Assembly: GCA_016929295.1 (NCBI GenBank)
Contig: JAFGJB010000066.1
Span: 1 to 47,945, forward strand
Direction of reading: 5' to 3'
Origin: Candidatus Zhuqueibacterota bacterium
GTDB lineage: Bacteria; Zhuqueibacterota; Zhuqueibacteria; Residuimicrobiales; Krinioviventaceae
Length of the DNA stretch: 47,945 nucleotides
Shown here: piece after piece, positions 18,222-30,240 of the stretch
Position numbering within the stretch: position 1 is the stretch's first letter
Layout: every line of letters begins with the position of its first letter
Translations under genes and position numbers: made by a program
Notes under the pieces: generated by a model
Databases searched by the model: none
What the model was told of the DNA's origin: nothing
The model's input: the letters and a program-made list of their open reading frames with translations, nothing else

Positions 18222-19391
18222 TTATCGGATCTCGACAATGATCAGCATGATATCATCGCGGCAATATTCACCGCTAAAGCGTCGAACATCGGCGACGATA
18301 TCCCTGCACGCCGAAACGCCTTGCTCGATATGAGCCTCAATGGATGCCAGCAAGCCCGTTGTGCCGAACTGGTTCTTGTTGGGATCTTCGGCCTCCACAA
18401 TGCCGTCTGTATAGATGATGATTCTGTCGCCTGTTGCAAGTTCTTTCGCATCTTGCTTGAACAGGCCGTCTTTTTTGTCAAAACCAATGATGGTATTTTG
18501 CGAGACGAGCTCGGTCATCGTTTTTTCGCCTGAACTATAAAGCAACGCGGCCGGATGGCCGCCGCCGGCATAGCTGATCTTCTTGGCTTTAAAATCCAGT
18601 TGAATGGACATCATGGTCAGAAAGAGGCCCATACTGCCAAAGGTGTCAAAACAAAATGAATTGATCGCCGTGAGAATGTCTCTCGGATGAGGATTTTTCT
18701 TGAGAATGGCATTGATTTCGTTGTGAATTCGGTTCACCAGCAGGGCTGCAGCGATGCCATGGCCGGTCACATCGACCATATTCAGATGGACGTGATCACC
18801 ATTCTGATAGATATGACAAAAATCTCCGCCGATGCCGATCATGGGATGATACTCAACGCCAACGGCAATGCGTTCATTTTCAAAATTCTTCGGCACCAGA
18901 CTCGCTTGCACCTTGCCGGCGAGTTCAAGGTCTCTCTCAATCATCAGATTATGGGCCGCCAGCTTTTTTTGCTGCGCTTCGAGACGAAGCTGCATATCGC
19001 GCCTTTCCAGCGCTTTTTCAATTCGCATCAGAAACGCGTCCTTGTTGACCGGCTTGGACATGTAGTCAAAGGCGCCCTGCTGAATAGCTTTCACAGCTGT
19101 CGGGATGCTGCCATAGCCGGTCATGATGACGACCTGGGTGTGTGGATCTTTTTCTTTCGCAACCTGCAGGACATCCAGTCCACCCAAGCTATACATCTGC
19201 AGATCGGTCACAATGAGGGCATAACTATTCTGCGCGATAGACTCGACCGCCTCCTCGCCGGATGCAGCCTCATCCACTTGATGGCCATTTTTTCTCAACA
19301 CATGAAGATAATACTTGCGATTATTGGCGTCATCATCGACGACAAGTATTTTCGCCGAGCTCTCCGGCGTGATAGGCAATTCTCTGCTCAT
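18222..19391 (-). CDS. Response regulator with SpoIIE phosphatase output (RsbU/RssB-like)
   Basis: 389 residues. The receiver domain (about 13-130) has the acidic pocket VVDDD, phospho-acceptor Asp63 in IVTDLQM, Thr in IMTGYG and Lys in MSKPVNKD. A helical linker follows, then a PP2C/SpoIIE domain (about 185-388) with GGDFCHIY, VDVTGHG and a terminal DDIMLI. An unseen histidine kinase would phosphorylate Asp63 and so adjust phosphatase activity on a STAS protein. None lies in the window. The ATG overlaps the stop of the GAF-GAF-SpoIIE gene by four bases (ATGA), so the two are translationally coupled. Confidence 0.93.
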   Translation of the reverse strand: MSRELPITPESSAKILVVDDDANNRKYYLHVLRKNGHQVDEAASGEEAVESIAQNSYALIVTDLQMYSLGGLDVLQVAKEKDPHTQVVIMTGYGSIPTAVKAIQQGAFDYMSKPVNKDAFLMRIEKALERRDMQLRLEAQQKKLAAHNLMIERDLELAGKVQASLVPKNFENERIAVGVEYHPMIGIGGDFCHIYQNGDHVHLNMVDVTGHGIAAALLVNRIHNEINAILKKNPHPRDILTAINSFCFDTFGSMGLFLTMMSIQLDFKAKKISYAGGGHPAALLYSSGEKTMTELVSQNTIIGFDKKDGLFKQDAKELATGDRIIIYTDGIVEAEDPNKNQFGTTGLLASIEAHIEQGVSACRDIVADVRRFSGEYCRDDIMLIIVEIR

Positions 19392-21145
19392 GACTCCAGT
19401 TTCAAAGCCAACATTGTTATGTCATCCGCCTGCGGCACACCTTTGGCAAAAATGCGCAATTCATTGATCAATATGTTGGCGAAATCCTCAACCGACACAT
19501 CCTTTTTCATGCATTCCCTGACGAGATTTTCGAGGCGCAGCTCTTCATACATGTCACCGCCTTTGTTTTTTGCTTCGGTAACTCCATCAGTATAGGTGAT
19601 AAGAAAATCTCCGGGTGCGAGCGTCACATAGCCCGTCTCATAGATCCTGTTGCCCATCATACCGAGGAGCAATCCCCCTTTTTCCAACAATTCGCACGAA
19701 CCATCGCGGTGAAAAATATAGGGAGGATTGTGGCCGGCATTAATGTAAGCCAATATCCTTGTCCTCACATTGTATTCAGCATAAAAAAAGGTGATAAACT
19801 TGTCTATATTTGTGTTCTCATAAATCAGATTATTCAACCTGCTAATCACCCTATCCATGCTCATATCCGAGTCCGTGAGTATATGCAGACCGGCGTGCAG
19901 ATTGGACATGAGCAGTGCCGCACCGATGCCCTTTCCCGAAACATCACCAATGGCGAGCGCCACCCGATCATCATCCAGCAAAAAGCAGTCGAAATAGTCG
20001 CCGCCAACCTGCCGGGAAGGGATGTTAAAACCATAAATTTCAAGATGATCTAATTGCGGAAAGCTGCTGGGTAAAAGCCGCTGCTGAATGTCACGAGCGA
20101 TGGCGATTTCCTCTTCCAATCTCTCTTTTTCGAGCGCCTCCTCAAAGAGTCGCGCATTTTCAATGGAGATCATCGCTCTGTTGCCCAGCGAGGAAAGAAA
20201 ATCCAGTTCGTCGTCCGCATAGGGAATAGTGGACATTTTGGGTCCAAGGAGCAAGATACCTTTTGTCTCTTGCTGGATGCGCATCGGCACAATGACCTGA
20301 AAACCGCCCTTGCGTATCAGCGCCAGTGCTGCGGTCAAATTATCTGCTTGAACGTAACAAGGCGATTGTTGTTGAGCCAACTCCCCAAGTATGGGCTGCT
20401 CCATCATCGACTGGAAGAGCTGCGAACTGCTGTTGACGCCTCGATTCGCCGCAAGATAAAACTCTTCATTCCTTTTCAAGAACAACAAGAGTTTATTCAC
20501 CGCCATTTCGCCCATGATTGTGAACTGCAGTATGTTTATTATTTTGGCCAACTCGAGGGTGCTATTTAACTCTTTGCCAATATCGAACAGTGTGTTCAGC
20601 TCCTGGACTTTTTTGTCCAGTTGACGATTCATCCTTTCAATCTTGTTGAACATGAGGGCATTCTCAATGGCAGCCGCCGCAATGTTCGACAGTGAATTGA
20701 GAAATTCCAGTTCCTTTTTGGTGAATTTTTGCCCGTTCATTTTGTCACCCAGGCATAATGCGCCGACCAGGCGATTTGTGCGTAGCATTGGCACGGCCAG
20801 GCTCAGACCTTTGGACAAAAAATAGTCCCTGTTCGGGCACTGTTCGGCTGACAAGCTGGTCAGCAGGACGGGATGCTCAAATTGATATTCGAGAAAGATT
20901 TTCTGATCCTTTAACTTTGCCGAGAATCCTTTGACGACCTTGACGACATAACCGCCATCGTCATCGACAGCCAGAGCCATGCCGCGACTGATGAGCATTC
21001 TACCCATTAACGTCAGCAGGCAATTGTTCAATACATGAGAAACATCCAGTGATGAGTTGAGTATTTGGCTTAACTCGAAGAGGGATCGTAATTCAACACT
21101 TTTGTAGTCAAGAGTGGCTTGCGGCGATTGTGGTTGTTGCTCCAA
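19388..21145 (-). CDS. GAF-GAF-SpoIIE phosphatase
   Basis: Soluble PP2C phosphatase with two N-terminal GAF sensor domains (roughly residues 25-175 and 195-345) and a SpoIIE domain in the last 210 residues. GGDYFDCF, IGDVSGKG and ADDITML mark the metal site; ITYTDGVTEAKN is also typical. No transmembrane segment, so it senses a cytoplasmic signal. The frame is open to a TTG at 21166 inside the upstream kinase gene, but no ribosome-binding site precedes it. A TTG at 21145, one base after the kinase stop, has GAGGG about 11 bases upstream and is my preferred start; this choice is uncertain. Confidence 0.92.
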   Translation of the reverse strand: MEQQPQSPQATLDYKSVELRSLFELSQILNSSLDVSHVLNNCLLTLMGRMLISRGMALAVDDDGGYVVKVVKGFSAKLKDQKIFLEYQFEHPVLLTSLSAEQCPNRDYFLSKGLSLAVPMLRTNRLVGALCLGDKMNGQKFTKKELEFLNSLSNIAAAAIENALMFNKIERMNRQLDKKVQELNTLFDIGKELNSTLELAKIINILQFTIMGEMAVNKLLLFLKRNEEFYLAANRGVNSSSQLFQSMMEQPILGELAQQQSPCYVQADNLTAALALIRKGGFQVIVPMRIQQETKGILLLGPKMSTIPYADDELDFLSSLGNRAMISIENARLFEEALEKERLEEEIAIARDIQQRLLPSSFPQLDHLEIYGFNIPSRQVGGDYFDCFLLDDDRVALAIGDVSGKGIGAALLMSNLHAGLHILTDSDMSMDRVISRLNNLIYENTNIDKFITFFYAEYNVRTRILAYINAGHNPPYIFHRDGSCELLEKGGLLLGMMGNRIYETGYVTLAPGDFLITYTDGVTEAKNKGGDMYEELRLENLVRECMKKDVSVEDFANILINELRIFAKGVPQADDITMLALKLES

Positions 21146-21146
21146 C

Positions 21147-21620
21147 TTATTTCTTTCCCTCACCAAAGCCAGAGTTATTTTTGTCGATGAAATACTTTAC
21201 CATTTTGACCTGATTCTTGACCCCCGGCTGTATTTGATAATCGACCTCGTCCATCAAGGTCTTCATGAGATAAATCCCCAGTCCGCCAACCTTGAGCTGA
21301 GCCAGATATTCTTGCATATCGGGCATTTTTATGGAATCGGGATCAAATCCTTTGCCATGATCGGTGACGACGAGCGTAAATTTATCAAAGTCTATTTTTA
21401 TCAAGATGTCGAGGCTCTTTTTGCCATTGTTCCGATCCGATGCATAGGCATGTTTTATGACATTTGTACATGCCTCATCGCAAGCAAGTTCAATTTTTCC
21501 AACGTCATCCGAGTTGAATCCCACTTTGTCGGCCACCTTGGTGACAAACTCGCGAATCAACTCCAGGTTGTCCGTCTCGCTGGGAATCCGCAATCTATAT
21601 TCGTATGCAGTAGTTGGCAT
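21147..21620 (-). CDS. RsbW-like anti-sigma-type serine kinase
   Basis: 157-residue GHKL ATPase of the RsbW/SpoIIAB kind, which phosphorylates a STAS antagonist and, in well-studied systems, sequesters a sigma factor. The N box is IELACDEACTNVIKHAY with Asn53. The G1 box is VTDHGKGFD and the G2 box GGLGIYLMK. AAGGTG precedes the ATG. It lies between the STAS gene (69 bases upstream) and the GAF-GAF-SpoIIE gene, the classic partner-switch order. No alternative sigma factor is adjacent, so its output partner is unknown. Confidence 0.93.
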   Translation of the reverse strand: MPTTAYEYRLRIPSETDNLELIREFVTKVADKVGFNSDDVGKIELACDEACTNVIKHAYASDRNNGKKSLDILIKIDFDKFTLVVTDHGKGFDPDSIKMPDMQEYLAQLKVGGLGIYLMKTLMDEVDYQIQPGVKNQVKMVKYFIDKNNSGFGEGKK

Positions 21621-21689
21621 AATCTCGCACCTTATTTGATTGAATTGAAGTTATTCAAACAATCCCGTTCCCACTCTCTTAATTACGAG

Positions 21690-22049
21690 TCATTTTTGCT
21701 CAGGTTTGTAAAATAATTCGATGGCACGATCTTCCTCTTGCACAATATCATACAGGGTTGGAAATCCCAAAAGATCAAATACGCGGAAAATTTTCGGCGA
21801 CATGCTGCACATCTTGATGTCGCCCTGATTATCACGAATATTTTCGATATATCCCATAAAAACACCCAGCCCGGCACTGCTGATATAAGTCAGATCTTTA
21901 AAATTAACGATGATATTAAAGCGTTCTTCAGCTATCAACTTTTCAAGTTCATTTTCAAGCTCGGGCGCAGTATGAGCATCCAAAAATCCGTTCAGGTACA
22001 GAATAGAACATCCGTTTTTGTTCACTCGGCTAATACTAAACGCGTCCAT
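21690..22049 (-). CDS. STAS-domain anti-sigma factor antagonist (RsbV/SpoIIAA-like)
   Basis: 119 residues, a single STAS domain. The site of regulatory phosphorylation is in YISSAGLGVF; by alignment with the DSSGLG motif of SpoIIAA, Ser58 is the likely acceptor, with the usual preceding Asp replaced by Ser57, a common variant. Unphosphorylated protein would bind the RsbW-like kinase encoded next; the SpoIIE phosphatases would restore it. GGAGG lies four bases before the ATG. It is the only STAS protein recognised in the window, so all four phosphatases may converge on it. Confidence 0.93.
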   Translation of the reverse strand: MDAFSISRVNKNGCSILYLNGFLDAHTAPELENELEKLIAEERFNIIVNFKDLTYISSAGLGVFMGYIENIRDNQGDIKMCSMSPKIFRVFDLLGFPTLYDIVQEEDRAIELFYKPEQK

Positions 22050-22091
22050 ATATCCTCCGCAGGTTGAATGGTATCGGTATCAGATTTATCG

Positions 22092-24170
22092 CTAGAGTGC
22101 CTTAATTATGACAAAAGTCAAATCGTCGTAGGCGTTTTGTCCGTCAAAAAAGCTGTAAATAGTATGGATGATATGTTTTTTTATTTCAATCGATACCTGG
22201 TCTTTCACGGCTAGCAAAGCTGTCTCCAGTCCTTTTTCACCAAATTCATCGCCATCGCGATTCCTCGCATCGGTGACGCCGTCGGTATAGAGCAGGAGAG
22301 TGTCGCCGCGCTTCAGCTTGATCCTCTCCTGTTGCAGAGATTTTGCAAAAATGGGACCCGGATCAAGCCCGACGCCCAGTCCTTTCGGCTCCAAACGTTG
22401 ACAGATGTCCTTCTCTCCATGGACAAAAAATATGGGACAATGTCCTGCGCGACAAAATGTAAATGATCTGTTTTTCGCATCAATGATCCCATAGATCAAA
22501 CTTATGAACGTCTTGCGATCAAAGTTCTTGTACAAGATCTCGTTTGCAGCGACGAGCATCTGTTCCGGTGACAACACTTCTTTCGCAAGCGCTTCCATTA
22601 TCCCTTTCACTTCCGCCATATAAAATGCCGCGGATGGTCCTTTGCCCGAAACGTCGCCGATGACGATGCCCAGTTTTGCGTCGTCCAGTTTGAAAAAATC
22701 GTAATAGTCGCCACCCACTTCGTTCGCGGTCACGCAAACGGCATCCAGCTCAATGCCTTCGATCACCGGCATCTTTTTGGGCAGCAATTTCATTTGCGCT
22801 TCGTGGGCAATTTTCAATTCCTGTTCCAGCCGCTCCTTGACGATGGATTCCTCGACTAAACGAGCGTTTTCAACTGCAATGGTCGCTTGATCGCTAAAAG
22901 CCCGCAACATTTCGGCATCATCCTGCTCAAATCCGAATTCAAAACGTTTTCCCACATATAAAAATCCGACAACTCGATCGGAAGTGATCATCGGCACGGC
23001 GATGAGCGAACCAACATCCTTTTTCCAGGTCTGAATATTTTTCACCAGATCATTTTTATTGACCTGGTTGCAAATCATCGTCTCTTTGGTGCGCTTCAAC
23101 CACTCTATCAAGGGCCCAATCCGCTCGGCTTGCCAATTCTGCCGTTCGAATTCCAGCAGTTGCTTGGAGGAGATGAGAGAGAGCGCACCGTCTCTATGGT
23201 TATAAAGCTCGAGCCAGGCATATTCGGCCTGCGTCACCTCCGAGGCCAGCTTTACTATTGTCCTCACCAGTTTGGTCCAGTTGAACTCGGAACTGAGAGC
23301 GCGACTCAGATCGTGCAGCGATTGAATTTGCTGCATTTTGCGGTCATATAACTTGGCTGTCGGTAAATGCGCGAGCAACGCCAGAAAAGAGATGGATAAA
23401 TAGACAGTGATGAAAACCATCCCCATTTCGATAAATCGTTCCAGCAGGGGACTGAAGGATACAATAGGATTGATTTCGCGAAATTGAACTACAAAAAGGC
23501 CTTGCACCGGTACAAGGATCAAACCGCCCCAAAAGCAGGCGATCTTTTGCTTTTTATTGAGATAATTGATCCAGCCAACGCGAAAAGAATTGATGACGGA
23601 AAAATTGATCAGAATGAAGAGCACTACATAATTGATATATTTGAACAGAGCAGCGTCATGAATGACAGAATCAGGATAGTATTCTGGCAAACTCGTGAGC
23701 GAGTAGAGCAATAAAAAAATCATCAGCCAGGTGAATATGGCCGCGGTCGATTTTTTCCTTTTAATATAGATTAAATTTCGCAGCGTTCCCAGGGCTATCA
23801 GGATGAAAACGATGGCAAAAAACGCCCAGGAAACGACGAGGACATTATCACCCAGATTAATCCTGAAAAAATCGCTGTCAAAAAACTGCTCGCGCAAAGA
23901 GGCAAGACGATTCTCCGACAGAAACAAAATGGCGCTGGTGATGAGCACAAGAAAAAAAAGATGCCGCAAACCGCGCAATACATTGCGGTCCGAAGTCCAC
24001 TTTTGTTTGTAGATGAGCGGCAACGACAAGATCAATGAAATCAGGATGAATCCATCGCGGATAATCATGGAAGCAATGGTATAATCCGACGACTGCCCCA
24101 TGTACTGGATAGCAGCCCCTAAAAAAAACGCCAAAGGCAACAAGAGAGAAAGCTGACTGAGATATTTCAT
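22092..24170 (-). CDS. Multi-pass membrane GAF-SpoIIE phosphatase
   Basis: 692 residues. The N-terminal 270 residues contain about eight hydrophobic helices, giving a 7TM-like integral membrane sensor. A short linker (about 272-300) leads to a GAF domain (about 300-450). The SpoIIE phosphatase occupies about 475-690, with GGDYYDFF, IGDVSGKG, LLYTDGVTDARN and YDDLTFV. It starts 42 bases upstream of the STAS gene and is the first gene after a recognisable promoter (24270-24298), so it probably heads the signalling operon. The membrane part may bind a ligand or sense membrane state; no specific family was recognised. Confidence 0.92.
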   Translation of the reverse strand: MKYLSQLSLLLPLAFFLGAAIQYMGQSSDYTIASMIIRDGFILISLILSLPLIYKQKWTSDRNVLRGLRHLFFLVLITSAILFLSENRLASLREQFFDSDFFRINLGDNVLVVSWAFFAIVFILIALGTLRNLIYIKRKKSTAAIFTWLMIFLLLYSLTSLPEYYPDSVIHDAALFKYINYVVLFILINFSVINSFRVGWINYLNKKQKIACFWGGLILVPVQGLFVVQFREINPIVSFSPLLERFIEMGMVFITVYLSISFLALLAHLPTAKLYDRKMQQIQSLHDLSRALSSEFNWTKLVRTIVKLASEVTQAEYAWLELYNHRDGALSLISSKQLLEFERQNWQAERIGPLIEWLKRTKETMICNQVNKNDLVKNIQTWKKDVGSLIAVPMITSDRVVGFLYVGKRFEFGFEQDDAEMLRAFSDQATIAVENARLVEESIVKERLEQELKIAHEAQMKLLPKKMPVIEGIELDAVCVTANEVGGDYYDFFKLDDAKLGIVIGDVSGKGPSAAFYMAEVKGIMEALAKEVLSPEQMLVAANEILYKNFDRKTFISLIYGIIDAKNRSFTFCRAGHCPIFFVHGEKDICQRLEPKGLGVGLDPGPIFAKSLQQERIKLKRGDTLLLYTDGVTDARNRDGDEFGEKGLETALLAVKDQVSIEIKKHIIHTIYSFFDGQNAYDDLTFVIIKAL

Positions 24171-24306: not shown

Positions 24307-24885
24307 TCACTCCGATGACAGCTCTTTTTCCCCAAATACCTGCGCCGAGAATATTTTTATAACCGTATCTTCATAGCGCCAGGCATCAACGGGCAGGCCG
24401 GCTTTGCGGCATGTCTGCTGCAAAAATGTCTCGGAATCCCAGTGATAATCGGCAGCGACCTGCGGCAGCAGCAAGCCGGAATAGAGTCCGTTCTTGATAT
24501 AGAGGCCATGCCGTCCCACCTCGATCTCCTGAATATCCCTGATTTGCTGCAAGGGAGACAAGACAGATATCTCGATATCGATATCAGCTAACTCATCGGC
24601 GGCGACCGGTTTGAATCTCGGATCGCGACAGGCAGCGACGGCCATTTCGCAAACGGTCTCTCGCAATGGCTTGTACGCCATCACATAGCCAATGCATCCC
24701 CGCAGCTTGCCATCGTTATGCAGCGTCACAAAAGCGCCGCGCTTTTCCGAGAAAATCTTTGCATCGAACGCAACAGGTTCTGTTTTTCTCGTACCCAGAG
24801 CTTCTTCAATAGCACTGCGCGCGGCGATGAGCAGGACCTTTTTTTCGTCTTGCGTCAGAGGACGATCGGCCTTTTCAGCTGTCAT
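24307..24885 (-). CDS. amrA: AmmeMemoRadiSam system protein A (AMMECR1), stand-alone copy
   Basis: 192 residues, a full AMMECR1 domain without a signal peptide, so cytoplasmic. The diagnostic segment is LRGCIGY, followed by MAVAACRDPRFKPV and later IEISVLSPLQ, all typical of the family; the biochemical role is not established. GGGGTG precedes the ATG. It is 15 bases downstream of the Memo-AMMECR1 fusion gene and so is a second A-type domain in the same operon. The two copies differ substantially, e.g. LRGCIGYVMAYKPL here against LRGCIGHHESDMPL in the fusion, so this is not a recent duplication. Confidence 0.93.
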   Translation of the reverse strand: MTAEKADRPLTQDEKKVLLIAARSAIEEALGTRKTEPVAFDAKIFSEKRGAFVTLHNDGKLRGCIGYVMAYKPLRETVCEMAVAACRDPRFKPVAADELADIDIEISVLSPLQQIRDIQEIEVGRHGLYIKNGLYSGLLLPQVAADYHWDSETFLQQTCRKAGLPVDAWRYEDTVIKIFSAQVFGEKELSSE

Positions 24886-24900
24886 ATTTCACCCCGCATA

Positions 24901-26403
24901 CTAATGAATCAGAATATTCTCATCAAACACCTGTGTTCGATAAAGCCAAAATTCGGCGCCCTGCTTCCAGGCGCTCGACGGCAGTCCTGCTTTGCGGCAT
25001 AAATTCGCCATCTCTTCGTCCACAGTGCGCCAGCCGGCCTCGACAGGCACTTCCGGCAGAAAAGTGGCGCCATGTGTTCCTTTGCGCATGATAATGCCGT
25101 GCACGCCCATTTCAAATTCGGCCAGGCTGGCGATTTTGTAGACATTGGTCAAATAGACCGACACCTTGATTTTGATGTCATCGAGTTCGTCCGCCGCCAA
25201 TGGCGGGAAACGCGGATCATCAAATGCCGCGGCCACGGCCATGTGCGGCACCAGCTGATAGAGCGGCATATCGGACTCGTGGTGGCCGATACAGCCGCGC
25301 AAAAGACCATTTTTTGTGATCGTCACAAAAACGCCTCTCTTTTGTCGCTGCACATCGTTTGCCGGTGCGGTTTCGAGAATGGCGCCTTTTTCAATATAGT
25401 GGACGATGGCCGTACGCGCCAACCCGACCAGCACTCGCTGATCATCAATATTCAGCGGTGCAAAGTCGATCCTGCCGGACTCGATCGAGCGATAAACGGC
25501 GACGGCGCCATATCCCACCACATAACCGCCCTTTTGACCGATGACATCATTCGAGTTGGTTTTTGCCAGCAGCTCCGTCGCGTTCGCGCCGCGTTGCTGT
25601 GCGGCTATTTGCATGACAACCACCGGACCGCCGCCGCACGCCTGCGAGGATCCCGACTGCAATCCCTGATAAAGATTTTTGGGTTGCAGCGCCACAATCG
25701 CCGCCAGCGTTTGGTCGCCCAGTTGCACGCAGTCGTCGTACGACTCGCCATGGTAAAGGTCGGTGCTGGCGACGATCAGCGCACTTTTATTCTCCAGAAC
25801 CCTGGCCAGCGATCGGCCAATGCTCTCGCACGCTGACCAGTCGACATATCCCATGACAATTGGAATGATCTTCGTCTGCGGAAAGATGAACTGCAGAAAA
25901 GGCACCTGCACTTCAATGGCATGCTCTGCACGGTGTCCATATTCGGAAAAATGCACCTGGTCGCATAAATCGACGAGCTCGCGTGCCAAAGAGACATCGA
26001 TAGCCGCGGCGCCCAGAGGCGTCTCGTACGCTCGCCCGGGATATATCGTCGCGCCGCGAAATGAATCGTGATGGCTCGGCGCAATGATGACAATGACGTC
26101 ATACTTTTTGCCGATGACCTGCTTGTAGGCCGCCGCAGCGATGGCGGCGGAATACTGATATCCGGCGTGCGGCGCCACCAGACCAACGATGTCCCCCTCG
26201 ATGACGCGCACCGCGGCACTCTTTAACTTTTGCTCAATGTCGCTTGCCAGCTGGATGGGATCATTCGGATAAAACTGACCGGCGACCACAGGCCGACGAA
26301 CCTGACTGGAGGCGCAAAAAACAGGAATGAAGCTGAAGCCAATCAGTATACAAACAAACCGAGCGGAAAACCATCGCTTCTGCATGGAAACACCCTTTTT
26401 CAT
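24901..26403 (-). CDS. amrB: Exported AmmeMemoRadiSam B-A fusion (Memo-AMMECR1)
   Basis: 500 residues. The ATG at 26403 has GGAGAG just upstream; the frame runs 21 codons further but into the upstream gene. Residues 1-34 look like a signal peptide (KRW then a hydrophobic core ILIGFSFIPVFCASS). The Memo domain (about 37-310) has VAGQFYPND, PHAGYQYS, APSHHDSF, STDLYHG and SSQACGGGP, matching conserved His and Cys residues of MEMO1 homologues. The AMMECR1 domain (about 325-500) contains LRGCIGHHES and PLAADELDDI. The fused, exported form contrasts with the short cytosolic A copy next door. The operon also encodes the third partner, the radical SAM enzyme. Confidence 0.93.
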   Translation of the reverse strand: MKKGVSMQKRWFSARFVCILIGFSFIPVFCASSQVRRPVVAGQFYPNDPIQLASDIEQKLKSAAVRVIEGDIVGLVAPHAGYQYSAAIAAAAYKQVIGKKYDVIVIIAPSHHDSFRGATIYPGRAYETPLGAAAIDVSLARELVDLCDQVHFSEYGHRAEHAIEVQVPFLQFIFPQTKIIPIVMGYVDWSACESIGRSLARVLENKSALIVASTDLYHGESYDDCVQLGDQTLAAIVALQPKNLYQGLQSGSSQACGGGPVVVMQIAAQQRGANATELLAKTNSNDVIGQKGGYVVGYGAVAVYRSIESGRIDFAPLNIDDQRVLVGLARTAIVHYIEKGAILETAPANDVQRQKRGVFVTITKNGLLRGCIGHHESDMPLYQLVPHMAVAAAFDDPRFPPLAADELDDIKIKVSVYLTNVYKIASLAEFEMGVHGIIMRKGTHGATFLPEVPVEAGWRTVDEEMANLCRKAGLPSSAWKQGAEFWLYRTQVFDENILIH

Positions 26404-26416
26404 AGTCTCTCCAATC

Positions 26417-27523
26417 TCATGACCAGATGCCGGCAATGGCCGCACCGCATTTGTCGCACGTGCCATTGTGCAGAGACATACTCACGACCGCAAAGCCAAC
26501 CCGTTGGATGACGATCTCTCCGCACGCCGGGCAGTAGGTGTTTTCGCCGGGATCTCCCGGCACATTGCCGGTGTAGACAAAATGCAGCCCGCTATCCAGA
26601 CCAATCTGCCGTGCCATGGTCAGGGTCTTGACTGGCGTGGAAGGCAAATTTTTGAGGCGATATTGCGGATGAAAGCGCGAGAAATGAAGGGGCGTATCCG
26701 GACCCAACTCTTTATAAATCCACGCGCACATAGCCTCCAGCTCCTTTCGATCATCATTTTGCCCGGGGATGACCAGGTAAACAATTTCGGTCCACATTTT
26801 TTGTTTCCTGAGCAAAACGAGCGTATCGAGGACGGGTTTGAGCTCACCGGCGACGAGCTCGCGGTAAAATCGTTCGGTAAAGGCTTTGAGGTCAATTTTC
26901 ACGCCACTCAGGACCGAACATAAATCTTTCATCGGCTGGGGATTGATATAGCCGTTGGTGATCATGACGCTGCGCACTCCCACTTCATTGCCTTGCACCG
27001 CAGAATCGTGCATATATTCCGTAAAGATGACCGGCTCACTATAGGTATAGGCGATTGATGCGCACGCGCGATTTTTCGCGACGTGCGCGACGTCGTATGG
27101 CGGCAGATCAAACGATTTCACCTGGTCGGGCGTCGATTGCGAGATTTCCCAATTTTGGCAAAATTTGCACATCACGTTGCAGCCGACCGTCGCGAGTGAA
27201 AAGGCTGATGTGCCGGGCAAAAAGTGAAAGAGCGGTTTTTTTTCGATCGGATCGATGTGCGCTGTGCAGGGTTTGCCATAAACCAAAGTATAATAGGTGC
27301 CACCGATATTCTCGCGCACCCCACAATAACCGCGCTCCAGATCGTCGATGACGCACTCGCGCGGACAAAGTTTACACTGTATCTTCCGATTGGCCAACTT
27401 TTCATAATAGCGCGCCTCCACCAGGTCGGCTTTGCCGCTCGTCCCTTGTGCGATCAGTCGCACCGGTGAACCGGCAATGGAGCAGCCCAGGGCTGCGGCG
27501 GCTAGAAATTCTCGTCGATTCAT
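26417..27523 (-). CDS. amrS: AmmeMemoRadiSam radical SAM enzyme with Tat-type leader
   Basis: About 368 residues. The leader MNRREFLAAAALGCS has the RRxFL twin-arginine motif, and ALGC could even be a lipobox. An N-terminal cysteine group follows (CKLCPRECVIDD, GYCGVRENIGG), as usual in this family. The radical SAM cluster motif is CNVMCKFCQNWEIS. The C-terminus is a zinc-ribbon-like pair of CxxC motifs (CPACG, CDKCG). I chose ATG 27523; a GTG three codons earlier overlaps the DUF362 stop. The reaction catalysed by this family is unknown. It sits between DUF362 and the Memo-AMMECR1 fusion with 4-13 base junctions, so the proteins presumably act together. Confidence 0.93.
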   Translation of the reverse strand: MNRREFLAAAALGCSIAGSPVRLIAQGTSGKADLVEARYYEKLANRKIQCKLCPRECVIDDLERGYCGVRENIGGTYYTLVYGKPCTAHIDPIEKKPLFHFLPGTSAFSLATVGCNVMCKFCQNWEISQSTPDQVKSFDLPPYDVAHVAKNRACASIAYTYSEPVIFTEYMHDSAVQGNEVGVRSVMITNGYINPQPMKDLCSVLSGVKIDLKAFTERFYRELVAGELKPVLDTLVLLRKQKMWTEIVYLVIPGQNDDRKELEAMCAWIYKELGPDTPLHFSRFHPQYRLKNLPSTPVKTLTMARQIGLDSGLHFVYTGNVPGDPGENTYCPACGEIVIQRVGFAVVSMSLHNGTCDKCGAAIAGIWS

Positions 27524-27528
27524 TTCGC

Positions 27529-28533
27529 TCACACTCTTACAACTTGAATTCTTGCGGGGTCATCTGTGCCCAGGCGATGCTCGACATCAGCGGCTCGCGC
27601 GATATAGACGGGCTTTCGCCCGGCTTTTTCCAGCGACTCGATGCCGTTTTCCGCTCTTTTTTGCTCGATGATATCCCAGGCGATGCGATCCATCGCCACC
27701 ATGTCGGTGGCGCACATGAGACTATCCATTGGCCACGACCACTCCCGCATGAACGGCGGTCCTCCTTCATATTGGGCTGTCAAGGCGTCGCAGATGGTCA
27801 AACGGACCTTATCCCGGATTGGCGGCAGCATATTCACGTCCGCGACAAAAGGATCGCCGACATTCATATGATACTTGTTTGGATTATTAATCACGCCAAA
27901 AAAATTCTTCAGCGCGCAGCTCAGCCCGACGATGCCGTGATCTTTCAGGATGGGCAGGTTGATGACCGCGGTACATCGCTGCGTCAGGATGCGGCATATC
28001 TGACTGGCGACAGCGCCGTGCTCAAAAAGCTGCTCCGTGAAACCCGATTGATCATTGCCCACGCACTGCACCTGGCCGCGTTCCTGCGATATTTTGAATC
28101 CCGCGCCGATGAGATCCCGGTTGCGCCGGTCAAAAATGATGATATTTTGTCTTCTCACCCCCGCAAGCAGCAGGCGGTCAATGATTTCACTGACAATTTC
28201 AGGATGCGTGGATAGATTCACCCCGGCAAGACAGTTTACCTTGAGGCCAACGACATCGTGCGGCGAGAACAGCGATCTCCACGCTGCCGGCGCGGGACGC
28301 TGAAAAAAAGCCTCAATCGTTGCGTCCAAAAGTCGGGCAAGATGTGGCTGCGACAGGCTGTGATCGGTCTTGTTCAAGTCGGAACCATGCGCGATGACCA
28401 CGCGGGATTTGGCATCGTCGTTCGCCTGAACCGGGCTTCTTGCCATCGCCGGCTTGAATGAAGAGGCCTCGAGCCCTAAAACCAGGGCGCTGCCGAGAGT
28501 CGCGGAGGTTTTGATAAATCGTCTGCGTTCCAT
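27529..28533 (-). CDS. DUF362 protein with Tat signal
   Basis: 334 residues. MERRRFIKTSATLGSALVLG is a twin-arginine leader. The body matches DUF362: VVIAHGSDLN, GLKVNCLAGVNLSTHP, VINLPILKDHGIVGLSCALKNFFG and ICDALTAQYEGGP are characteristic. The C-terminal ferredoxin module of some members is absent. Function of the family is undefined. It is the first gene of the AmmeMemoRadiSam operon, with a promoter directly upstream whose predicted start point coincides with the ATG. There is no ribosome-binding site before this ATG, consistent with a leaderless message. Confidence 0.9.
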   Translation of the reverse strand: MERRRFIKTSATLGSALVLGLEASSFKPAMARSPVQANDDAKSRVVIAHGSDLNKTDHSLSQPHLARLLDATIEAFFQRPAPAAWRSLFSPHDVVGLKVNCLAGVNLSTHPEIVSEIIDRLLLAGVRRQNIIIFDRRNRDLIGAGFKISQERGQVQCVGNDQSGFTEQLFEHGAVASQICRILTQRCTAVINLPILKDHGIVGLSCALKNFFGVINNPNKYHMNVGDPFVADVNMLPPIRDKVRLTICDALTAQYEGGPPFMREWSWPMDSLMCATDMVAMDRIAWDIIEQKRAENGIESLEKAGRKPVYIARAADVEHRLGTDDPARIQVVRV

Positions 28534-28538
28534 ACTAT

Positions 28539-28567
28539 AAGATATGCAATGTTGGATCGAATGTCAA
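28539..28567 (-). promoter_or_regulatory. Promoter of the AmmeMemoRadiSam operon, probably giving a leaderless mRNA
   Basis: On the minus strand: perfect TTGACA (28567-28562), a 17-base spacer, then TATCTT (28544-28539), only five bases before the ATG of the DUF362 gene (28533). A start point seven bases below the -10 would be at the ATG itself. The -35 overlaps the stop codon of the upstream GAF gene (28564-28566). Confidence 0.5.
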
Positions 28568-30240
28568 CGCAGAAAACGCTCGATCATTTCTTTAAAGCCG
28601 CCAGCGGTGAAATCCCGGGTTGAAATCGAATTCCTCACACCGCCGCTGTGGCGAGAGGATGATGATTCTTTGACCCGGGCGTACATGATCCGGTTGTCGA
28701 TCGCCACGGCGATCTGATTTGCCAATATTTCCAGGATTTGCACTGTTGCCGGCGTCGGAATTCGTGATTCTTGCGGATCATCGGCCATGAAGAATCCGAC
28801 TGTTTTCCCATCGCGCCCCCGAACAGGCACAAGCAGCAATGCCTGTTGCGGCCAGCCACCTGTCGGATGCGGGCGCGTTTCAGCACCGTAATAAATCTGC
28901 TTGAACTGCTGCAAAACAGCCTCTTCGCGGTTGACGAGATAGGATTGACCGATGAGATAGTCATCTTTTAGCAGAGCGCTAAATTCGGCTACAGCAAATG
29001 TCAATGCCAGCAGCTGCGTTTGTTTGATCTTGTCATCGCACGCCACGGCTTTTGTTTCGAGCATTTGTGTCTTTTTGCTGATGAGGACAATGGCCACCAG
29101 ATTGAAATCGAGACCGCGTTTGGCAGACCACGCTATTTCATCCAACAGCTCGGTGAGACTGAGATGCAATTTGAAAATATTGCTGTTGGCAAGGACCTGG
29201 CGCAGTCGACGATTTTTGTTAGCCAACACGTTGAATCGGTGACAGTTTTCAATACTCATGCTCACCAGCCGAGTGATCACGTCGAGACTTTGAAGAGTCG
29301 ACCGAGCTGGTATGACGTTATCGAGAGGTTCATCCAGAGAAATATAGCCATAAGGGCGATCGTGATAATCCCTGAGGCTGAGCAATATGAGGTCGCGTTT
29401 GTGCCATTTGTCCGACGGGCGTCGGCGCTCCGCAACAGCAGAATGATCGTCCTCGGAGGCATCTCGCTGATCCTGATCATTGTGTATGATCTTCATTCGA
29501 TAGCGATCGTGAAAAATACGCTCGATGACCTGGCGTGGAATCTCACTCATGCGTCGATCTGGCGAAGTGGCGCCGTTTGCCGCGTAGCCGACCATCATCT
29601 GCTTTACATATACGTTGCGGCGAACATCGAGCAGTGCCAGTGTCGCGCGTTTGAAGTGAAAGAGCTGACAAATCACCTCGAGGATGCGGCGCAAAAAGAG
29701 ATGCACCGGATCGGAGTAGCCCCGGTGCATGAGGCTGACGAACCCGGCGATCAATTCGCTCTGATCAATTGGATGGCGTTGCCCTTGCTGGGTCGCGGGC
29801 TCAGGACTGAGAGTAGCTTGAAAGCCAATGACATCGTGACGAGATGCACTCTCTGCTGATGCGGCGAAGCGGCTGCGAATGGCTTCTGAAATGGACAGCA
29901 GATAGTCACCGCTTTTGACAATTGTCTGCTGAGCGCCGATTCCGCCGACCTGCTCGAGCAATGGATCATTTTCGCGCAGCAAAACGATGATATAGGATTC
30001 ATCCACCAGCGCTTCAAGCGGCTTCAACGGGGCGGCGTTATTTCCCGTAAAATCCCCATCTATCAAGCAGACCTGAAAAGATGCGTGCGCAGTTTTCTCC
30101 GCTACAGCGTCGAGTGTCTGTGCGCCGACGATTTCATAGTTCGCATTTTGCGCCGACAACATTTGTGTTGCAGCGTCGATAAAAGATATTTCAGGGTGTG
30201 CGATTAAAATGTTCATTTGAGAAGTATTTTTCTGATCCAT
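28564..30240 (-). CDS. Receiver-like/GAF-GAF signalling protein without output domain
   Basis: 558 residues, soluble. Residues about 8-135 have a receiver-like fold pattern: ILIAHPEISF, then CLIDGDF with an Asp at the phospho-acceptor position, then IVKSGDYLLSISEAI. The usual acidic pair at strand 1 is replaced by HP, so phosphorylation is doubtful. Two GAF-like domains follow (about 165-335 and 350-525). The C-terminus ends in a short tail with no phosphatase, kinase, GGDEF or DNA-binding domain. It may regulate the neighbouring PP2C network by protein contact; that is inference. ATG 30240 is used here; ATG at MNILIAHP is an alternative, and neither has a clear ribosome-binding site. Confidence 0.8.
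   Translation of the reverse strand: MDQKNTSQMNILIAHPEISFIDAATQMLSAQNANYEIVGAQTLDAVAEKTAHASFQVCLIDGDFTGNNAAPLKPLEALVDESYIIVLLRENDPLLEQVGGIGAQQTIVKSGDYLLSISEAIRSRFAASAESASRHDVIGFQATLSPEPATQQGQRHPIDQSELIAGFVSLMHRGYSDPVHLFLRRILEVICQLFHFKRATLALLDVRRNVYVKQMMVGYAANGATSPDRRMSEIPRQVIERIFHDRYRMKIIHNDQDQRDASEDDHSAVAERRRPSDKWHKRDLILLSLRDYHDRPYGYISLDEPLDNVIPARSTLQSLDVITRLVSMSIENCHRFNVLANKNRRLRQVLANSNIFKLHLSLTELLDEIAWSAKRGLDFNLVAIVLISKKTQMLETKAVACDDKIKQTQLLALTFAVAEFSALLKDDYLIGQSYLVNREEAVLQQFKQIYYGAETRPHPTGGWPQQALLLVPVRGRDGKTVGFFMADDPQESRIPTPATVQILEILANQIAVAIDNRIMYARVKESSSSRHSGGVRNSISTRDFTAGGFKEMIERFLR

Follow-up and report, generated by a model that had tools for sequence, protein, structure and literature searches.

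The four-gene operon at positions 24307-28533 of the window (the whole 47,945-nucleotide stretch of DNA analysed here) is, with reasonable probability, the extracytoplasmic member of a duplicated pair of AmmeMemoRadiSam systems. Its three leadered proteins are very probably exported, and we lean towards SAM chemistry taking place outside the cytoplasm. The operon, the conservation of its leaders, the two clades, the intact catalytic motifs and the co-occurrence of a membrane protein are read from sequence, and it is from these that we infer actual export, activity outside, a substrate, a SAM supply and an electron source. AmmeMemoRadiSam is already known though uncharacterised; the exported form appears to be new, and a phrase search of a library of papers found none that speaks of a periplasmic, exported, secreted or extracellular radical SAM.

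Organization of the operon

The genes are arranged head to tail, all of them on the minus strand, and the order given in the original prediction (DUF362, radical SAM enzyme (rSAM), Memo-AMMECR1 fusion, AMMECR1) holds, with each open reading frame (ORF) in its predicted place and matching the expected family. The DUF362 protein (27529..28533; PF04015, 70 bits) carries a twin-arginine leader, MERRRFIKTSATLGSALVLG, and its stop codon overlaps a GTG at 27532 that is the alternative start of the rSAM gene (26417..27532; TIGR04337, 396 bits against a cut-off of 220). The probable rSAM start is the ATG at 27523, giving the N-terminus MNRREFLAAAALGCS, and the twin-arginine leader of this protein, MNRREFLAAAALGCSIAGSPVRLIAQG..., spans 27434..27523. 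For the fusion, the ORF is listed from 26466; the ATG at 26403 (gene 24901..26403; N-terminus MKKGVSMQKRWFSARFVCILIGFSFIPVF) is preferred as the start because GGAGAG lies just upstream and because it falls about 14 bases after the rSAM stop codon. The fusion matches PF01875 with 188 bits and PF01871 with 166 bits, and comprises a Sec-type signal, a Memo domain (25504..26292) with the motifs PHAGY, SHH, STDLYH and CGGGP, and an AMMECR1 domain (24925..25425; PF01871) that the AMMECR1 tree assigns to a putative exported type. After a further 15 bases, a stand-alone AMMECR1 of predicted cytosolic type (24307..24885; PF01871, 190 bits) forms the 3' end of the operon. As had been claimed, this short AMMECR1 is the only one of the four proteins without a signal. 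The curated models agree with these assignments, as the Memo-coding gene, which adjoins the rSAM ORF, reaches 238.7 bits with TIGR04336 (cut-off 26), and the two AMMECR1 copies reach 156.9 and 184.8 bits with TIGR04335 (cut-off 99).

A TIGR04337 profile search of 82 genomes of the phylum (candidate division KSB1) found two full rSAM copies in most of them, and 80 loci were retrieved for comparison. Among these loci the order DUF362, rSAM, Memo-AMMECR1, with or without the final AMMECR1, repeats throughout KSB1, and some loci are without DUF362 or the last gene. The regions flanking the operon (19388-24170 and 28564-30240 of the window) encode regulators that resemble GAF and PP2C/SpoIIE-type proteins, and similar genes recur beside the operon at other KSB1 loci.

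Predicted export leaders in KSB1

A twin-arginine leader is present in all 41 rSAMs of the operon class and in none of the 42 other rSAMs examined in the phylum. It consists of RR, a following residue that is aromatic or hydrophobic, and a run of hydrophobic residues, approximately 25-50 residues ahead of the core, with R3 and R4 invariant and F6 nearly so. Members of the leaderless class start by ATG at the core itself (for example, MKEALFY). In a tree built from the rSAM core only, which like our other trees came from a short search, leadered and leaderless enzymes are split by one branch (SH-aLRT 97), a single change. The leader is thus kept in orthologues and missing from paralogues, and the suspicion that it might be a start-site error did not hold. 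The DUF362 protein of the window also exceeds the cut-off of TIGR01409, a curated model of Tat signals (21.1 against 16.7 bits), and an RR..F leader is found on nearly all of its relatives, in agreement with the Tat-like start proposed for it. The Sec-type signal proposed for the fusion is likewise supported by a hydrophobic N-terminus in the fusions examined, which is lipoprotein-like in some relatives. TatC is encoded in the genome from which the window derives (G000, contig C134).

The Tat-like start claimed for the rSAM is conserved across the whole operon class, although generic Tat HMMs respond weakly, with the leader of the window's own rSAM falling below threshold (TIGR01409 included) and PF10518 scoring only 5 of 34 rSAM leaders, weakly. 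TIGR01409 does exceed its cut-off on the rSAM of locus L157. Those weak scores are what speaks for reading the leaders as non-functional export signals on proteins that are cytosolic or merely tethered. We regard such a reading as very improbable, given the perfect split of leaders between the two rSAM classes, the presence of leaders on three proteins of the operon but not on the fourth, and a low background, the motif RRx[FLVI][LIVM] occurring soon after the start codon in only 14 of 702 other ORFs of at least 220 amino acids from the same loci.

Spread beyond KSB1 and variant leaders

A scan of 84,980 species genomes yielded 80 loci, about 55 of which have a leader on the rSAM; leader classes outside KSB1 were set by simple rules, and a handful of Omnitrophota entries assigned to Tat probably belong to the Sec/anchor type. 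Leadered enzymes come from Latescibacterota, Planctomycetota, Acidobacteriota, Poribacteria, Verrucomicrobiota, Kiritimatiellota, Lentisphaerota, Myxococcota, Thermodesulfobacteriota, Armatimonadota, Eiseniibacteriota, Chloroflexota, Stahliibacteriota, Omnitrophota, Auribacterota, Elusimicrobiota, Chlamydiota and Bacteroidota, and across these approximately 18 named phyla they form essentially one clade. On a tree of 138 rSAMs from about 20 phyla, the exported and leaderless states need 5 changes compared to 35 with shuffled labels, indicating that export is old and has been kept.

Two variants bear on where the enzyme might act. Most leaders in Omnitrophota, Auribacterota, Chlamydiota and Elusimicrobiota resemble a Sec signal or an anchor and not a Tat signal; individual examples of such leaders were noted at L160, L161, L163, L165, L166 and L173. 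In addition, the rSAMs of L157, L180, L181 and L191 have a Tat-like leader followed by CxxCH with a later His and only then the core, and together with the 5'-truncated L176 they form one starred clade drawn from several phyla. Haem c is attached through CxxCH, a step that takes place outside the cytoplasm; the segment accordingly looks haem-c-like, a zinc site being an alternative reading. A CxxCH in L202 was dropped, as it lies upstream of the likely start of a leaderless member. Since one type of leader has been swapped for another and a CxxCH sub-clade exists, export itself looks conserved, and the location outside appears to be the feature that has been retained.

These variants weigh on the possibility that the rSAM acts in the cytoplasm before or during folding, with Tat carrying the finished or spent protein to the membrane as a docked partner. 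SAM and low-potential reductants are cytosolic and Tat exports folded proteins, both of which speak for this possibility, and we know of no extracytoplasmic SAM pool, a point against an enzyme active outside. A Sec-exported rSAM would, moreover, have to acquire its iron-sulphur clusters outside, a further point against. On the other hand, the partner fusion, given its Sec signal, would not be folded while in the cytoplasm, sister lineages bear a Sec/anchor leader on the rSAM, and the CxxCH clade points to a role on the outer face, so that chemistry confined to the cytoplasm appears improbable. The same sister leaders and CxxCH motif weaken the rider in the original prediction, by which the rSAM might act as it folds, ahead of its export through Tat.

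The probably exported rSAM as an enzyme

The catalytic cysteines and SAM-site motifs of the leadered enzyme are intact. CxxxCxxC (C118/C122/C125) is invariant in both rSAM classes, as are four N-terminal cysteines (C53/56/60/70) and four C-terminal ones (C334/337/359/362), and the SAM-site motifs TYxEP and DLK are invariant or nearly so in both, with E166, D214 and K216 conserved. The AF2 model of the rSAM (pLDDT 91) has as its best PDB match PflA with SAM and peptide (3cb8, TM-score 0.83 on the PflA length), and a profile alignment to PflA spans the cluster-binding cysteines as well as DLK (PflA residues 129-131). Among the partner proteins, the AMMECR1 motif RGCIG is retained in 69 of 72 fusions and the Memo motifs in most exported fusions. 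Separately, the class-specific cysteines C89, C205 and C269 were considered as disulphide evidence and rejected, because they vary too independently across the class.

An exported rSAM might instead have ceased to use SAM and serve as an iron-sulphur or metal scaffold, or as an electron carrier, for Memo-AMMECR1. No SAM would be expected outside, the auxiliary cysteines are invariant and some members have CxxCH, all of which would suit such a role; however, neither class has lost CxxxCxxC or the SAM-site motifs that PflA also has (DLK, TYxEP), and there are no relaxed positions of the kind that a pseudo-enzyme would show. We therefore judge a scaffold unlikely and continue to favour an active, exported enzyme.

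Two sets, probably for two compartments

Besides the operon, the genome G000 encodes a leaderless rSAM on contig C10 and a leaderless Memo on C138, and no AMMECR1 other than the two copies in this operon. In the AMMECR1 tree, the fusion-borne domain of the window falls in a separate starred clade, whereas the stand-alone copy groups with the stand-alone AMMECR1 of G042, a genome with the leaderless set only. On this grouping the last operon gene most likely serves the cytosolic set. The two forms thus separate in the window's own lineage, which lends support to the proposal that they serve different compartments, with the caveat that other fusions lie nearer the stand-alone group and that resolution is poor deeper in the tree. 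A stand-alone AMMECR1 is missing from several genomes in which the exported operon occurs, so the trio is not always complete.

Other relatives of these families were noted in passing. A third, divergent Memo with an extra N-terminal part is encoded in an ORF of about 420 amino acids in the same genome (G000:C277:4377-5234, L114), and similar ORFs occur in many genomes across the phylum. At two loci (L095 and L096, G055:C201 and G056:C445) an ORF of about 935 amino acids encodes a divergent rSAM of the AmmeMemo type; the C-terminal part of this ORF resembles, by eye, an adenylating domain of the phenylacetate-CoA-ligase type.

A co-occurring membrane protein

Clustering of neighbouring genes revealed a protein of about 750 amino acids beside exported rSAMs in many phyla, represented in the window's genome by G000:C287:14134-16275 (L213) and elsewhere by, for example, L046:8322-10586. 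It is MFS-like, with 12-14 transmembrane (TM) segments and a spermidine-synthase-like domain between the membrane halves, and the two halves constitute an internal 6+6 TM repeat (score 256, compared to 76 for shuffles, SD 11). K+R are abundant in all of the predicted inner loops and scarce in all of the outer ones, a pattern that is predicted to place the central domain outside.

Across the 82 KSB1 genomes, with presence sets compiled by hand from search outputs, the membrane protein is found in 49 of 53 genomes that have the exported module compared to 2 of 29 that do not (49/4/2/27; Fisher 3e-15, a value that ignores kinship). The exceptions are G031, G036, G043, G057, G039 and G061, of which five are less than 90% complete and G036 has matching fragments. 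Both the module and the membrane protein are missing from families f7, f12 and f13 and from genomes G005, G006, G042 and G044, implying several separate joint absences. By position, the gene lies near 31 of 53 leadered loci compared to 4 of 26 scored leaderless ones, and three of those four have a particular explanation (a truncated contig in L176, a Tat-like leader missed by the rule in L184, a frameshift in L185). It adjoins the rSAM in only one of the 40 KSB1 loci of the batch, which counts against the explanation favoured here. In seven related genomes (L215, L222-L227) the gene lies near what appears by eye to be an RnfB-like gene, in a cluster of the tpi-secG-cysS type; this RnfB-like neighbour is a possible lead on electron transfer.

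A true spermidine synthase was considered and rejected for this protein. Where the catalytic Asp is usually found, 31 of 51 sequences have Asn, which makes aminopropyl transfer unlikely, and curated cut-offs are not reached, PRK03612 giving 186 bits against 472. Of four proteins tested, two pass NF037959 and three pass PF01564. A SAM-binding type of fold, placed outside on a transporter-like body and tied to an exported SAM enzyme, suggests a supply of SAM, although we put this role forward as a tentative and rather doubtful one.

Proposed mechanism and implications

In the explanation that we favour, DUF362 and the rSAM would exit folded via Tat, the rSAM carrying its iron-sulphur clusters, and the Memo-AMMECR1 fusion would exit via Sec, after which it would be either tethered to the membrane's outer face or set free there. 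Once outside, the rSAM, with its build like that of a glycyl-radical-enzyme activase, would probably cut SAM so as to remove hydrogen from a small molecule or from a peptide, which the Memo/AMMECR1 protein would then handle. The membrane protein of contig C287 would be the best candidate supplier of SAM or of a SAM-derived substrate. The leaderless rSAM and Memo, together with the AMMECR1 at the operon's end, would make up the cytosolic system. A broader combined proposal, more tentative even than SAM supply taken singly, is that about 20 phyla run radical SAM chemistry outside, where the MFS-like protein would move or present SAM, the haem-c-like segment would sometimes feed electrons and the exported Memo-AMMECR1 would handle the target.

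To our knowledge, radical SAM chemistry is known only inside cells, and we know of no work establishing SAM and low-potential electrons outside the cytoplasm; if the rSAM is active where its leader sends it, both must exist there. That many bacteria hold a second AmmeMemoRadiSam copy with export signals suggests that this chemistry may occur beyond the membrane. Human relatives of Memo and AMMECR1 are linked to disease and have no settled function, and concrete candidate partners for these families are offered by the pairing of an exported with a cytosolic set, by the membrane protein that co-occurs with the exported one and by the clade with CxxCH.

Comparison with known systems

The DUF362 protein resembles LarA nickel-pincer racemases in fold. 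Its AF2 model (pLDDT 87) has LarA family members or relatives as its 11 best PDB matches (E from 1.4e-5), suggesting a LarA-fold protein, but the TM-score is about 0.45, no convincing sequence match was found among PDB chains, and LarC (PF01969) was not found in G000 or in seven more of the 10 genomes of its family. Despite the similar fold, a functional nickel enzyme of the LarA type was rejected on the last two grounds. The membrane protein resembles fused MFS/spermidine synthase proteins in that it passes the NF037959 and PF01564 models in part, and differs in its TM-domain-TM order, its 6+6 repeat and its mostly replaced Asp. With PflA and other glycyl-radical-enzyme activases the rSAM shares the fold, CxxxCxxC and the DLK motif; it differs in its extra N- and C-terminal cysteine motifs, in its leader and in scoring 50 bits with the curated PFLA model, far under the cut-off of 231.75. 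Like the operon, the Memo-Ammecr1 systems of Burroughs et al. 2019, as cited in PMC7159879, include Memo and AMMECR1 together with a radical SAM family that is related. Finally, AmmeMemoRadiSam itself (TIGR04335, TIGR04336, TIGR04337) is matched by all three families, adjacent and above curated cut-offs, and the locus described here departs from it in the export leaders on three of four proteins, the fusion of Memo with AMMECR1 and the leaderless second set elsewhere in the genome.
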